This document shows positions 39,987 through 43,535 of a stretch of DNA of 64,000 nt, piece after piece. The translations under genes and the position numbers were made by a program. The notes under the pieces were generated by a model. The model was not told where the DNA came from. It made no database searches and saw only the letters and a list, made by a program, of their open reading frames with translations. Where the stretch lies: contig JAFVVO010000030.1 in NCBI GenBank assembly GCA_017502165.1, positions 1 to 64,000 on the forward strand. The letters run 5' to 3'. Source of the stretch: Clostridia bacterium. Its GTDB lineage: Bacteria; Bacillota; Clostridia; Christensenellales; QALW01. Positions within the stretch are counted from its first letter, which is position 1; every line of letters begins with the position of its first letter.

Positions 39987-40649
39987 TTATCTCATTTTCA
40001 CAACGTTGTCTGCCGATTTCACAATGGCGTTTTCGGGATAGACACCTCGCAGTGAGGTAAGGGGATAAACTCTGGTGCTTTTGCCAAGAATTGTTCCCGG
40101 ATTAAGCACGCAGCCGCAACCTACGTCTGCGCCGTCACCTAAAATCCCTCCGATTTTGCGAAGCCCTGTTTCGTAATCTTCATCGGAATGGATTACAACG
40201 TTATCCTTGGAGGCTTTAAGGTTTGAGCAAATGGAGCCTGCACCTATATGTGCCTTGTTGCCTAAAATGGAATCTCCAACGTAGTTATAGTGGGGAATCT
40301 GCGCGGAATCGAGAATAATGCAATTTTTTAGTTCGGTGGAATTTCCTATAACGCAGTTTCTGCCGAGGATAACACTTCCGCGGATAAAGGCACCGGGGCG
40401 GATTTCACATCCTGAGCCTATGATTGCAGGAGGCTCGATGGTGGCGGTGGGGTAAATCTTTACGTTTTCACCAACCAAAACACCCTCGGAATAGAGGGTA
40501 TAGCCTTCAATTCCCTTTTCAATTAGGGCTTTTGCGAAGCCTTTGATTTCGGGAAGCATCTCCCAGGGGTACTGATATTTATCGAAAAGCTCCGTTAAAT
40601 AGGGAGTTTCGCAGGAAAATAATTCTGCGGTTTTTACTTTTTTAATCAA
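39987..40649 (-). CDS. Left-handed beta-helix (GlmU C-domain-like) acyl/nucleotidyl-transferase-related protein
   Basis: This protein of about 220 residues lacks a nucleotidyltransferase domain. It is dominated by hexapeptide repeats (VLVGENVKIYPTATIEPP, then IIGSGCEIRPGAFIRG and VILGRNCVIGNSTELKN), which form a left-handed beta helix, with a HYNYVGDSILGNKAHIGAGS segment that closely recalls the acetyltransferase site of GlmU. The N-terminal 40 residues include ELFDKYQYPWEML. I choose the TTG at 40649 because AAAGAGG lies 8 bases upstream; another TTG at 40667 lacks one. It overlaps glmM by 8 bases. The pairing suggests a role in amino-sugar or UDP-GlcNAc metabolism, but the exact reaction is not certain. 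Confidence 0.78.
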   Translation of the reverse strand: MIKKVKTAELFSCETPYLTELFDKYQYPWEMLPEIKGFAKALIEKGIEGYTLYSEGVLVGENVKIYPTATIEPPAIIGSGCEIRPGAFIRGSVILGRNCVIGNSTELKNCIILDSAQIPHYNYVGDSILGNKAHIGAGSICSNLKASKDNVVIHSDEDYETGLRKIGGILGDGADVGCGCVLNPGTILGKSTRVYPLTSLRGVYPENAIVKSADNVVKMR

Positions 40650-42258
40650 CTTTATGACCTCTTTCAATTACAACGTTTGCAATTTGGTTTGCATATTCCT
40701 TGCAGAGCTCTTCAGTTTCGGCTTCTACCATAATTCTGATAACGGGCTCGGTACCGCTTTGACGCAAAAGAACTCTGCCTTTCGTATTAATAAGCTTTTC
40801 AACGTCGGCAAGGGCAGCGAGAACTGCCTCGTCGTTAAGCGCCGCCTGCTTATCCTTGACACGAACGTTTATCATAAATTGAGGATAAAGCTTTACGGGC
40901 TCGGCAAGGGCGGAAAGGGTAGTTTTGTTTTCGCAAAGCTCTTCGGCAATCATAATTGCGGTAAGTAAGCCGTCACCGGTGGTGGCGTATTTTTTGAGAA
41001 TAATGTGGCCTGACTGTTCACCGCCTAAGCAGTAATCGTTTTGCTGCATACATTCGTACACGAAGCGGTCGCCAACAGTAGTTTGCACGCATTTGATGCC
41101 TTCCTTTTCAAGACTTGCCAAAAGTCCGCTGTTGGACATAATGGTAGCAACGATAGTGTTATCGTTAAGAATTCCGCGGTTTTTAAGGCGTTTGCCGAGA
41201 ATGTAGAGAATAAGGTCACCGTCAACAATATTTCCGTTTTCGTCAACTGCGATACAACGGTCGGCATCACCGTCAAAAGCAAAGCCTAAGTCGAGATGTT
41301 TTTCTTTAACTAAGCGGCAGAGGTTTTCAATATGGGTTGATCCACAGTTGTTGTTAACGTTAAGACCGTCGGGCTCTGCGCCGATAACGGTGGTCTGTGC
41401 GCCTAAGGCACCGAAAACTGCGTTGGCTATTGACCAGGAAGCACCGTTTGCACAGTCAAGACCGATTTTAAGATTTTTGTATGAGTGGGATGCGAGGGAA
41501 ATAAGGTAACCTACGTAACGGTTTCTGCCTGCAACATAGTCAACAATACAGCCGATACGCTCTCTGTGGGCAAGGGGAAGGTCGGAACCTGAAAAACCGA
41601 GAGCATTCAAGTTGCCGTCAAGATAGGCTTCAATCAAAGCGGTGGTGGTGTCGTCAAGCTTTTCGCCGTAGCGGTTAATAACCTTGATACCGTTATCGTA
41701 GAAGGGATTGTGTGAGGCGGTAATCATAATACCGCAGTCAAATTCGTCCTGACGGGTAACGTAGGAAACGCTGGGGGTGGTGGTAACGTGAAGCATATAA
41801 GCGTCAGCACCCGAAGCGGTGATACCTGCAACAATGGAGTATTCAAGCATATAGCTGGAACGGCGGGTATCCTTACCGATAACAATTCTCGGACGGTAGC
41901 CGGTGTTGGTCTGTCCGGAAAGGGTGGAGGAATAATACCAGCCTAAGAATCTGCCTACCTTGTATGCCTGCATAGACGTAAGGTTAAGGTTGGCTTCTCC
42001 GCGGAAGCCGTCGGTACCAAAATACTTGTTGCCTTTTGCTTCGGAATCGTTGCAAATAGAAATTTTGTCGTGCAGAAGCTCGTCGGTGGAGATTTTGAAT
42101 AATTCACATAACTGAAGTACTTTGTCAATCTGAGGGAGCGATTGGTCCATTTCCCACTTGGAAACAGATTGTCTTGAAACGGCAATCTTATCTGCAAGCT
42201 GTTCCTGGGAAAGACCGGAATTAGCACGAAGCAGTGCGATTTTTTGTCCTATCGTCAT
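40642..42258 (-). CDS. glmM: XRE helix-turn-helix fused to phosphoglucosamine mutase
   Basis: This 538-residue fusion has residues 4-62 as a clear XRE/Cro-type DNA-binding domain (IALLRANSGLSQEQLADKIA, VSRQSVSKWEMDQSLP). Residues about 78-535 form an alpha-D-phosphohexomutase of the GlmM type, converting glucosamine-6-P to glucosamine-1-P. The start of the enzyme is KYFGTDGFRGEAN, the phosphoserine is Ser182 in TASHNP, the metal loop is DGDADRC, the sugar loop is GEQSGH and the phosphate loop is RQSGTEPVIRIMVEA. Ordinary GlmM is about 450 residues without HTH. There is no frameshift or stop between the domains and only one start, with AAGGAG before ATG 42258. I infer an enzyme that may also regulate its own or related genes. 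Confidence 0.9.
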   Translation of the reverse strand: MTIGQKIALLRANSGLSQEQLADKIAVSRQSVSKWEMDQSLPQIDKVLQLCELFKISTDELLHDKISICNDSEAKGNKYFGTDGFRGEANLNLTSMQAYKVGRFLGWYYSSTLSGQTNTGYRPRIVIGKDTRRSSYMLEYSIVAGITASGADAYMLHVTTTPSVSYVTRQDEFDCGIMITASHNPFYDNGIKVINRYGEKLDDTTTALIEAYLDGNLNALGFSGSDLPLAHRERIGCIVDYVAGRNRYVGYLISLASHSYKNLKIGLDCANGASWSIANAVFGALGAQTTVIGAEPDGLNVNNNCGSTHIENLCRLVKEKHLDLGFAFDGDADRCIAVDENGNIVDGDLILYILGKRLKNRGILNDNTIVATIMSNSGLLASLEKEGIKCVQTTVGDRFVYECMQQNDYCLGGEQSGHIILKKYATTGDGLLTAIMIAEELCENKTTLSALAEPVKLYPQFMINVRVKDKQAALNDEAVLAALADVEKLINTKGRVLLRQSGTEPVIRIMVEAETEELCKEYANQIANVVIERGHKVD

Positions 42259-42286
42259 AAAAGTTCTCCTTAACTTATATTAATAG

Positions 42287-42315
42287 TATAATACCATAAT
42301 ACCAAAAATTATGCA
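42287..42315 (-). promoter_or_regulatory. Promoter of the HTH-glmM operon
   Basis: On the minus strand, TTGCAT (42310-42315) and TATTAT (42287-42292) have a 17-base spacer. GCAACC repeats and a GCAAC/GTTGC palindrome (42346-42360) lie just upstream and could be an operator. Confidence 0.7.
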
Positions 42316-42360
42316 ACCTCGCAACCAACTAAACAAGGAAAAAAATGCAACTTGCGGTTG

Positions 42361-42490
42361 CGAAAAGGGATAAAAACGAGAAAAAAATCAAAAAACAAGC
42401 AAAAAATACAACGTAAACGCAAAGTGTAGGTGGCGAAAATCGATGCAAGATAAAAAGCGTTTATTAAAATATATGTGAAAAATTAAAAAA
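42361..42490. other. AT-rich intergenic stretch without a gene
   Basis: This purine-rich, A-rich stretch lies between the HTH-glmM promoter region and the palindrome array. I see no coding frame, RNA gene or clear regulatory element in it. Confidence 0.6.
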
Positions 42491-42504
42491 TGTTAATTAT
42501 CAAT

Positions 42505-42682
42505 CAATGCGTAGCATTGTATATCATCAAAATTTTAATTTTGTATATTATCAGCGGGCATGACCGCTGTATCTCATCAAGCCGATAGTGGTATACACAC
42601 CTGCGGTGTGATGATATACGCCGCATAAATACGTCAATGATATACACGCTTACGCGTAATGATATGCCAAGCCTATCGGCTT
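42505..42682. repeat. Array of short palindromes joined by TGATATAC-like linkers
   Basis: Small hairpins follow each other: CAATGC/GCATTG (42505-42519), AGCGG/CCGCT (42553-42568), CACACC/GGTGTG (42596-42610), ACGC/GCGT (42646-42657) and AAGCC/GGCTT (42669-42682). They are separated by near-constant linkers of the GTATATCATC or ATGATATAC type, the first group in one orientation and the second in the other. An outer inverted repeat AAGCCGATAG (42579-42588) / CTATCGGCTT (42673-42682) encloses part of it. This resembles intergenic palindromic repeats of the BIME/MITE kind, not a CRISPR. Confidence 0.7.
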
Positions 42683-42690
42683 GAATAAAA

Positions 42691-42716
42691 AATCCGCCGA
42701 CAAGGTCGACGGATTT
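42691..42716 (-). terminator. Terminator after tRNA-Arg
   Basis: AATCCGCCGAC and GTCGACGGATT pair with one mismatch around AAG. On the minus strand a T-run follows, immediately after the tRNA 3' end. Confidence 0.8.
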
Positions 42717-42717
42717 T

Positions 42718-42793
42718 TGGTGTGCCTGACAGGAGTTGAACCTGCGACACCCAGAGTCGGAGTCTGGTGCTCTATCCACTGAGCTACAGACAC
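42718..42793 (-). tRNA. tRNA-Arg (anticodon CCG)
   Basis: The minus strand folds as a full cloverleaf: acceptor GTGTCTG/CAGGCAC, D-arm with GCTC/GAGC, anticodon stem CCAGA/TCTGG enclosing the loop CTCCGAC (anticodon CCG, reading CGG), T-arm GCAGG/CCTGT with TTCAACT, discriminator A and an encoded CCA. It is 76 bases including CCA. Confidence 0.93.
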
Positions 42794-42850
42794 GTTTCGG
42801 TTATCATTTTACATAAAAAATTGTTTTTTAGCAAGTAAAATATTATTCTC

Positions 42851-42879
42851 TTGCAAAAAAAAGAAAAAAGGGGTACAAT
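42851..42879 (+). promoter_or_regulatory. Promoter of tmk
   Basis: TTGCAA (42851-42856) and TACAAT (42874-42879) are separated by 17 bases, about 30 bases before the tmk start. Confidence 0.65.
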
Positions 42880-42908
42880 ATGTAAAAATAAGTTGTTGAG
42901 GATTTGAA

Positions 42909-43535
42909 ATGAACAAAGGATTTTTTATTTCTTTTGAAGGTACTGACGGTTGCGGTAAAAGCACGCAGATTAAATTGCTTGCTGAATATCTTAAGAGTAA
43001 GGGCAGAGAGGTTGTAATTTCCCGCGAGCCCGGAGGAAGTCCCGTAGGCGAAAAGATAAGAGAGATTTTACTTAATGCTGACAACGTGGAAATTTCTTCT
43101 ATGTGCGAGCTGTTTTTGTTTGAGGCTGCCCGCGCTCAGCATATGGACCAAATTGTAATGCCTGCCTTGAATGAGGGAAAAATCGTTATTCTTGACAGAT
43201 TTATTGATTCGAGTATAGCGTATCAGGGCTTTGGCAGACAGCTTGGGGTTGAATGTGTTGAAACCTTTAACCATTATGCTATCGGAGGAAGATATCCCGA
43301 TGTTACCTTGATGCTGGAGCTTTCGCCCGAAACGGCTTTCGTGCGCAAGGGAGGAAACGACGTTAAGGACCGTATGGAAATGACGGGAAACGATTTCTTC
43401 AAGCGAGTTGGAGAAGGTCTTTCCTTTGCGGCGGAAAAATATTCCGACAGAATTATTTGTGTTAACGTTGAGGGTACTTGCCAGGAGACTCACGCAAGAA
43501 TTTGTGAAATTATTGACAAGGCAATAGGTGAATAA
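42909..43535 (+). CDS. tmk: Thymidylate kinase
   Basis: This 208-residue kinase phosphorylates dTMP to dTDP, needed for DNA synthesis. The P-loop FEGTDGCGKSTQ is at residues 8-19, SREPGGSPVGEKIR forms the DR(E)-type substrate loop, LFLFEAARAQH and ILDRFIDSSIAYQGFGR (catalytic DRF) follow. Length matches the bacterial family. GAGG lies upstream of ATG 42909. A small membrane-protein gene follows closely, forming a two-gene unit closed by the hairpin at 43844-43866. Confidence 0.95.
   Translation: MNKGFFISFEGTDGCGKSTQIKLLAEYLKSKGREVVISREPGGSPVGEKIREILLNADNVEISSMCELFLFEAARAQHMDQIVMPALNEGKIVILDRFIDSSIAYQGFGRQLGVECVETFNHYAIGGRYPDVTLMLELSPETAFVRKGGNDVKDRMEMTGNDFFKRVGEGLSFAAEKYSDRIICVNVEGTCQETHARICEIIDKAIGE

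Follow-up and report, generated by a model that had tools for sequence, protein, structure and literature searches.

A hairpin-linker array behind a tRNA-Arg gene of a Clostridia bacterium is probably a decayed copy of a small mobile module of tRNA and tmRNA 3' ends

The window, by which we mean the whole 64,000-nt stretch of DNA analysed (from a Clostridia bacterium, genome G000), contains at 42505-42683 an array of small hairpins joined by short linkers, bordered by a terminator hairpin and by the tRNA-Arg gene that the first-pass annotation had named as its neighbour. In ascending order, the features are as follows.

42479-42507, minus strand: outward-promoter relic, with the -35-like hexamer TTGATT at 42502-42507 and AATTTT, not TATAAT, 17 bp on
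42505-42519: hairpin H1, distal end
42520-42528, plus strand: linker L1, TATATCATC
42528-42543: hairpin H2, AT-rich and nonetheless perfectly palindromic
42544-42552, plus strand: linker L2, TATATTATC
about 42552-42569: hairpin H3
42570-42578, plus strand: linker L3, TATCTCATC
42579-42588, plus strand: centre segment a, AAGCCGATAG, the complement of H7's loop and 3' half
42596-42610: central hairpin Hc, CACACCTGCGGTGTG
42610-42618, minus strand: linker L4, GATGATATA, inverted
42619-42635: hairpin H5, decayed in the window copy
42636-42644, minus strand: linker L5, AATGATATA, inverted
42645-42657: hairpin H6, CACGCTTACGCGT
42658-42666, minus strand: linker L6, AATGATATG, inverted
42667-42683: hairpin H7, tRNA-side end, one half of which (CTATCGGCTT, 42673-42682) pairs with the centre segment
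42684-42718, minus strand: module terminator hairpin from the inverted-repeat search, consisting of an A-run, 14-nt arms (42688-42701 and 42705-42718) and a T-run
42718-42793, minus strand: tRNA-Arg(ccg), detected by ARAGORN and Rfam RF00005, with the module behind its 3' CCA end

Within its 179 nt, the array holds five perfect hairpins with 6-bp stems, which start at about 42505, 42528, 42552, 42596 and 42668, besides a shorter hairpin (H6) and a decayed one (H5). Five hairpins were reached in none of 1000 dinucleotide shuffles of the array, the shuffle maximum being four, which bears out the first-pass annotation in its count of at least five short palindromes of differing sequence. The nearly constant linkers reversing midway that it described are likewise present, about 9 nt each, of the TATATCATC type on the left and of the inverted GATGATATA type on the right. 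Two of its details changed: the outer inverted repeat (TCAAGCCGATAG at 42577-42588 and CTATCGGCTTGA at 42673-42684) exists and matches at 12 of 12 positions, although it connects the array's centre with the tRNA-side end instead of enclosing the whole, and the last hairpin extends to 42683, one base beyond the end at 42682 given at first. Folding z-scores were -3.65 and -3.33 for the RNA of the plus and minus strand, respectively, and -4.23 for plus-strand DNA. A search of positions 42000-43200 with the Rfam 15 covariance models, at E values up to 1, returned the tRNA and an overlapping sub-threshold match only. The promoter relic lacks the TATAAT box, unlike many sister copies. On the minus strand at 40642-42258, the window also encodes a phosphomannomutase/phosphoglucomutase with an N-terminal HTH_3 domain, to our knowledge an unusual fusion.

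Searches with the window copy and a better-preserved copy as queries located the array at nine sites of the window's genome, one of them being that in the window; four of these copies are 86-93% identical, over nearly their full length, to a fifth, the query copy C34:6880. Among 61 genomes (the window's own and 60 relatives), seven match, its own included. A linker-gap-linker pattern was found in 33 of 396 genomes of the order, two of which (G106 and G189) look like coding-sequence matches, as against five matches in four genomes for a reversed-pattern control, and most inserts between the matched linkers are palindromes. A pattern scan of named genomes yielded at least 120 stretches, 80 of which (L270-L349) entered the hairpin and tRNA analysis; judged by title, most matches belong to MAGs from herbivore guts (Clostridia, Oscillospiraceae, Christensenella), with scattered chance matches in other phyla. 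A phage origin was considered and rejected, as a scan of viral contigs gave 54 stretches with nearly all inserts weak: one insert had a stem of 5 (L267), three had a stem of 4, and the others, with stems of 0-3, are probably chance matches. L267, on a contig from a viral collection, has a tRNA-Arg gene 323 nt away on the expected side and is perhaps the host flank of a provirus.

An array parser was run in both directions on all collected loci, requiring three linkers, three inverted linkers and the spacing, and not palindromes; its 143 parses correspond to 67 oriented unique arrays. Across these arrays, each hairpin position shows 14-28 distinct 5-nt arms, yet the outer 5 bp are paired in 98% (H2), 97% (H3), 87% (H5) and 87% (H6) of cases, compared with 52%, 70%, 49% and 58%, respectively, when the 3' arms are re-dealt among arrays. 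Similarly, the complement between the centre segment and H7 averages 9.24 nt, compared with 6.60 nt after re-dealing (200 shuffles, maximum 7.34). Comparison of the copies therefore reveals a family with a shared architecture and compensatory stems. Given that the two linker types are reverse complements, a chain of four-way junctions formed by pairing of left and right linkers looked attractive at first. We rejected it: L3 and L4 do not covary, leaving the pairing of the two array halves unsupported, and in 18 of the 67 arrays TATATCATC faces GATGAGATA, a mismatch. The structured RNA that the first-pass annotation had entertained may hold in so far as structure is conserved, although no helix-like covariation is seen in the linkers.

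The arrays are tied to the 3' ends of stable-RNA genes. A tRNA or tmRNA gene lies upstream in sense, within 700 nt, of 51 of the 61 arrays whose terminator-side flank measures 400 nt or more, a count in which at least four wrong-way rows (L282, L073, L349 and L364) figure as misses. In 38 direct cases, only 51-65 nt separate the tRNA end from the first linker, and this gap consists of nothing but the terminator and H7. Among the 80 named-genome loci analysed (of at least 120), all 25 hairpin groups with a tRNA within 300 nt sit on its 3' side; the other 44 of 69 groups have no tRNA annotated within this distance, many of them lying near contig ends and some after protein genes. Array families with the linkers GTGAAAT, GTGAAGT, ACATCGTT, GTGATGC and TATGTAATC occupy other tRNAs in the same way, and in the window's own genome 14 of 23 inspected tRNA 3' flanks (at least 150 nt each) bear some array type, as judged by eye. 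Reading outward, the order is the CCA end, a terminator, the array, often an outward promoter and then a small gene, an orientation that comparison finds to be fixed.

The terminators, too, recur: one sequence is common to tRNA-Glu, tRNA-Leu and tmRNA, another to tRNA-Val and tRNA-Leu, and a third, nearly unchanged, to tRNA-Trp, tRNA-Ala and tRNA-Ser. The presence of the same terminators behind different tRNAs indicates that they travel with the array. The window's own terminator and H7 are found, with few changes, behind tRNA-Val in G001, a genome of the same genus, where the array stops after the first linker. The terminator up to 42718 is part of the same module as the window array.

Arrays that lie at a distance from their tRNA are often directly preceded by a copy of its 3' end and a terminator; no duplicated tRNA 3' end was seen in the window. 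At L081 (1330-1960), a tandem double array stands behind tRNA-Leu, each copy with a tRNA 3' end and a terminator, and a consensus-like promoter precedes the truncated tRNA copy. A second kind of insert was noticed behind tRNAs as well (L095 7090-7324, L092 5940-6440, L045, L049, L065, L075 and L137). It measures about 130-300 nt or more; close to its start, the T-arm of the host tRNA is repeated in inverted form, and it ends in a direct copy of the host tRNA's 3' end with a terminator. By these copies, the insert matches its own host tRNA.

Closely related genomes differ in the presence of these modules. In G001, tmk and tRNA-Arg are kept and a plain terminator without an array follows the tRNA, although this locus is not a clean empty site, as only the tmk side is syntenic. 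At tRNA-Trp, both flanks are conserved, and the distance from the CCA end to the ung start codon is 61 bp in G001 compared with 1364 bp in G000, where the insert comprises a terminator, a family-A array, a promoter, an HTH gene and a membrane-protein-like gene, followed by a second array with linkers of a different type and by another promoter-like box. Behind tRNA-Ala(cgc), G000 and G001 carry different array types, and proteins that are 74% identical are encoded behind arrays near tRNA-Ala in G000 and near tRNA-Ser in G350. By eye, we recognised no target-site duplication at the arrays and saw no transposition intermediate. Nevertheless, these comparisons between sister species, together with the related cargo at different tRNAs, make array mobility and a target preference well supported at the sequence level, and the module of tRNA 3' ends is very probably mobile. 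Two conjectures of the first-pass annotation are supported in this way: a mobile palindromic repeat family, given the additional copies in its own genome and across the order, stems that vary while staying palindromic and a sister species whose same tRNA lacks the array, and an insertion hot spot beside a tRNA, given the strong association with tRNA 3' ends.

Near the distal end, a promoter-like match of at least 9/12 is present in 27 of 63 arrays, compared with 5% of shuffles. The genes behind the arrays are mixed. From 51 references to first open reading frames, 13 were dropped, the window's own row among these, because they were duplicates or wrong-way rows, overlapped the array or a tRNA relic, or had doubtful frames; the other 38 were scanned against Pfam. 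PF05635, HTH_3 and HTH_19 are the commonest families behind family-A arrays, with four genes each, and most cargo families are singletons; no integrase appears in the 25 of 31 Pfam families listed for these 38 genes. Directly behind tRNA and tmRNA 3' CCA ends sits, on the reading that we favour, a small mobile module, of which the feature in the window is probably a decayed copy that has no gene.

The recurring partner is PF05635, the S23/IVP four-helix-bundle family, for which we know of no established function. A search of the 61 genomes gave 28 matches in 11 genomes, one of them (L417) under the family cut-off, and 14 of the 28 genes follow the 3' end of a tRNA in the same sense at a distance of 214-566 nt. 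An upstream short-repeat score of at least 4 was obtained for 18 of 27 PF05635 genes (L415 has no upstream sequence), compared with 13 of 445 control open reading frames drawn from the window, the relatives' loci and viral contigs (Fisher P about 5e-18). A stricter score, with both orientations present at least twice, gave 13 of 28 compared with 4 of 218 controls. Linker type also follows the protein tree, which comprises 26 proteins (23 of the 28 PF05635 matches and three from array loci, without L403 and L410 (in-frame stop), L414 (long fused frame), and L415 and L417 (partial)): with linker labels assigned by eye, eight changes are needed, the minimum for nine groups, while shuffled labels need 17.9 on average and were never as low in 200 trials. 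Linker groups C and T, neither of them a single clade, require two changes each. Co-inheritance can, however, explain this congruence as well as recognition of the linkers by the protein.

At the level of genomes, PF05635 is present in 6 of the 7 with family-A arrays and in 5 of the other 54, a statistic that ignores kinship. PF05635 genes also stand behind several array types outside family A, and none is found in the window copy. The single match in the window's genome lies behind a different array type at tRNA-Asp, which leaves the family-A copies of this 96%-complete assembly without a cognate protein. Inverted linkers downstream of PF05635 genes were sought for nine genes in this order, with one stray match. 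Annotated four-helix-bundle genes on plasmids of cyanobacteria, Bernardetia and Treponema are placed between other genes; unlike in this order, short repeats in inverted arrangement flank them on either side, clearly in four of the six that were read and doubtfully in a fifth. Two such genes lie in defence clusters, on a Nostoc plasmid (L422, NZ_CP040299.1) and a Planktothrix plasmid (L423, NZ_LR882951.1), one between cas2 and cas1 and one between drmD and pglX. When the PDB was searched with a profile of the PF05635 proteins at E 0.01, the only solved homologues were 2RLD and 2GSC, entries with five chains each, and the protein is perhaps a pentamer. Avd structures were not reached at this threshold, so that the resemblance of PF05635 to Avd comes from the published suggestion of homology (PMC10053308); there, Avd is an accessory protein essential for the retrohoming of diversity-generating retroelements. 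Taken together, a role of PF05635 as the linker-recognising partner of the arrays appears plausible, with the balance of evidence just short of even.

In L292 (880-1100), L290 and L291, all linkers point the same way and connect as many as ten or so hairpins in the space separating protein genes; in L292, the array stands immediately between one gene's stop codon and the start of the next. In L270, L337 and L290, the linkers GATGATATA, GATTCCATA, GATGCCATA and GATTACATA occur side by side, which suggests a GAT-NNN-ATA consensus with an exchangeable middle. After cargo genes, the motif GACACCTTTT..GTTTTTACCC..GACACCTTTT recurs with variants (L091 at about 5170, L098 at about 4930 and L100 at about 2600) and is possibly the end of another element.

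Among the explanations that compete with a dedicated mobile module, that of site-specific integrative mini-elements deserves most attention. A tyrosine recombinase encoded elsewhere would integrate them at tRNA 3' ends, the classical targets of integrases, with the duplicated tRNA 3' fragments and terminators as attachment sites and the arrays as arm-type sites. The duplicates and terminators before displaced arrays (tRNA-Ser in L095, tmRNA in L065 and the tandem at tRNA-Leu in L081) and the tmRNA 3'-end copies on both sides of the L088 array are what such elements would leave behind. A classical integrase, though, depends on a core sequence that matches, and here the same terminator and array follow tRNAs with differing acceptor stems, identity beginning about at the CCA; as the listed cargo families also contain no integrase, we regard this explanation as unlikely. 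A non-mobile regulatory or insulating structure, either RNA or cruciform DNA, kept by selection between the tRNA terminator and the next promoter, would agree with the compensatory stems, the conserved pairing of centre and H7 and the excess of promoter matches at the distal end, but not with the presence/absence differences between sister species, the mostly unrelated downstream genes or the different array types at tRNA-Ala(cgc), and it seems distinctly less likely still.

Slippage and template switching behind terminators could, in principle, grow palindromes and repeats as a mutational by-product, with no dedicated factor. Some arrays do resemble tandem amplifications (L292 and L079), and heptamer repeats have been published from several phyla (PMC4679880). 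An ordered 3+3 architecture with centre-H7 pairing that is common to distant genomes, terminators shared among tRNAs and congruence with a protein family tree nevertheless make this origin improbable. Least probable of all is movement by an IS200/IS605-type Y1 transposase (TnpA-REP), as in REP/BIME elements (PMC8266576 and PMC3733652). These likewise consist of short, dispersed intergenic palindromes in both orientations, and the window array shares their inverted arrangement and a conserved motif adjoining each hairpin. The relationship is reversed, however, in that the array stems differ freely and the linkers are conserved. In REPs, it is the palindrome that is conserved, with a GTAG/GGAG-type foot. 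The REP-type transposase that the first-pass annotation had proposed to look for is largely refuted: its family, PF01797, has no match in the 96%-complete assembly of the window's genome or in G001, G003, G004 and G013, and it occurs in 137 of the 396 genomes of the order but in just 10 of the 33 array-positive ones, so that there is no enrichment.

The module we favour, mobile behind tRNA and tmRNA genes, invites comparison with three other kinds of element. Intervening sequences (IVSs) of 23S rRNA, such as that of Coxiella burnetii with its S23/IVP open reading frame, involve the same protein family, PF05635, and are likewise small, selfish-looking inserts with inverted repeats at a stable-RNA gene; they sit inside helix 45 of the 23S rRNA, the IVS RNA was released by RNase III, and their function and origin were called unclear in 2016 (PMC4990558). 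Unlike an IVS, the module is not part of the mature RNA: it follows the CCA of tRNA and tmRNA genes instead of interrupting 23S rRNA, and has its own terminator, linker array and promoter; many of its copies carry no open reading frame, PF05635 filling 4 of 38 family-A cargo slots. MITEs and other small mobile repeats (PMC2229807) are similarly short, non-coding, dispersed and presumably moved in trans. Unlike them, the module sits at tRNA 3' ends; terminal repeats of the transposase type and a target duplication were not identified, and its inverted repeat between segment a and H7 bounds only one half of the array. In its way of working, the module has something of an IVS or a MITE, but on present evidence it cannot be assigned to either. 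Cyanobacterial STRRs are short tandem heptamer repeats. Arrays of similar motifs of about 7 nt, including the TAACTGA repeats, are also found in intergenic DNA (PMC4679880), and such repeats flank the four-helix-bundle genes of cyanobacterial plasmids; as far as seen, they differ in having no hairpins between the motifs and no attachment to tRNAs. The text of PMC4679880 contains no occurrence of 'helix bundle' or 'S23'.

These observations can be combined into a tentative model. Starting from the tRNA, the module would bring its own intrinsic terminator, followed by H7, hairpins with linkers of about 9 nt in one orientation, the H7-complementary centre segment and hairpins with the same linker inverted; distally, an outward sigma-70-type promoter, its -35 box overlapping the last hairpin, would often come next, and then a small cargo gene, most typically one for a PF05635 protein of the IVS/S23 family, which is Avd-like. 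The linkers would be the recognised motif and the hairpins structural spacers, free in sequence but kept in pairing. Since the module brings a terminator and the tRNA keeps its CCA, insertion would presumably be harmless, which would allow modules to build up behind tRNAs. The PF05635 protein would bind the linkers cognate to it, as RNA or single-stranded DNA, and bring the module to stable-RNA genes, and gene-less copies like that in the window would be passengers or relics mobilised in trans. Candidate routes of joining include retro-homing of a tRNA-linked RNA, insertion of single-stranded DNA and host recombination at CCA and A-run microhomology. Given that the junction lies at the CCA whatever the tRNA, transfer may run through an RNA that carries the tRNA 3' end, although we consider RNA-mediated transfer unlikely.

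Collectively, our findings describe an array family that is real and widespread and that was not found described in the literature searched: full-text searches of open-licence papers, by sequence string and by words, turned up no description of these arrays or of a link between PF05635 and repeat arrays. It is tempting, if rather speculative, to think of an as yet unrecognised class of mobile elements, in which an Avd/S23-type four-helix-bundle protein recognises inverted arrays of linkers 7-10 nt long and delivers modules that carry their own terminator to stable-RNA genes, to tRNA and tmRNA CCA ends in these Clostridia and to the inside of 23S rRNA as intervening sequences. If this were true, the class would also take in the orphan genes annotated as 'four helix bundle protein' that heptamer repeats flank in other phyla. 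The link between PF05635 and the arrays turns the questions of the protein's function and of the function and origin of IVSs into a simple binding test. Moreover, the module, by supplying a terminator and a promoter, would describe a route by which gene cassettes may gather behind tRNA genes.
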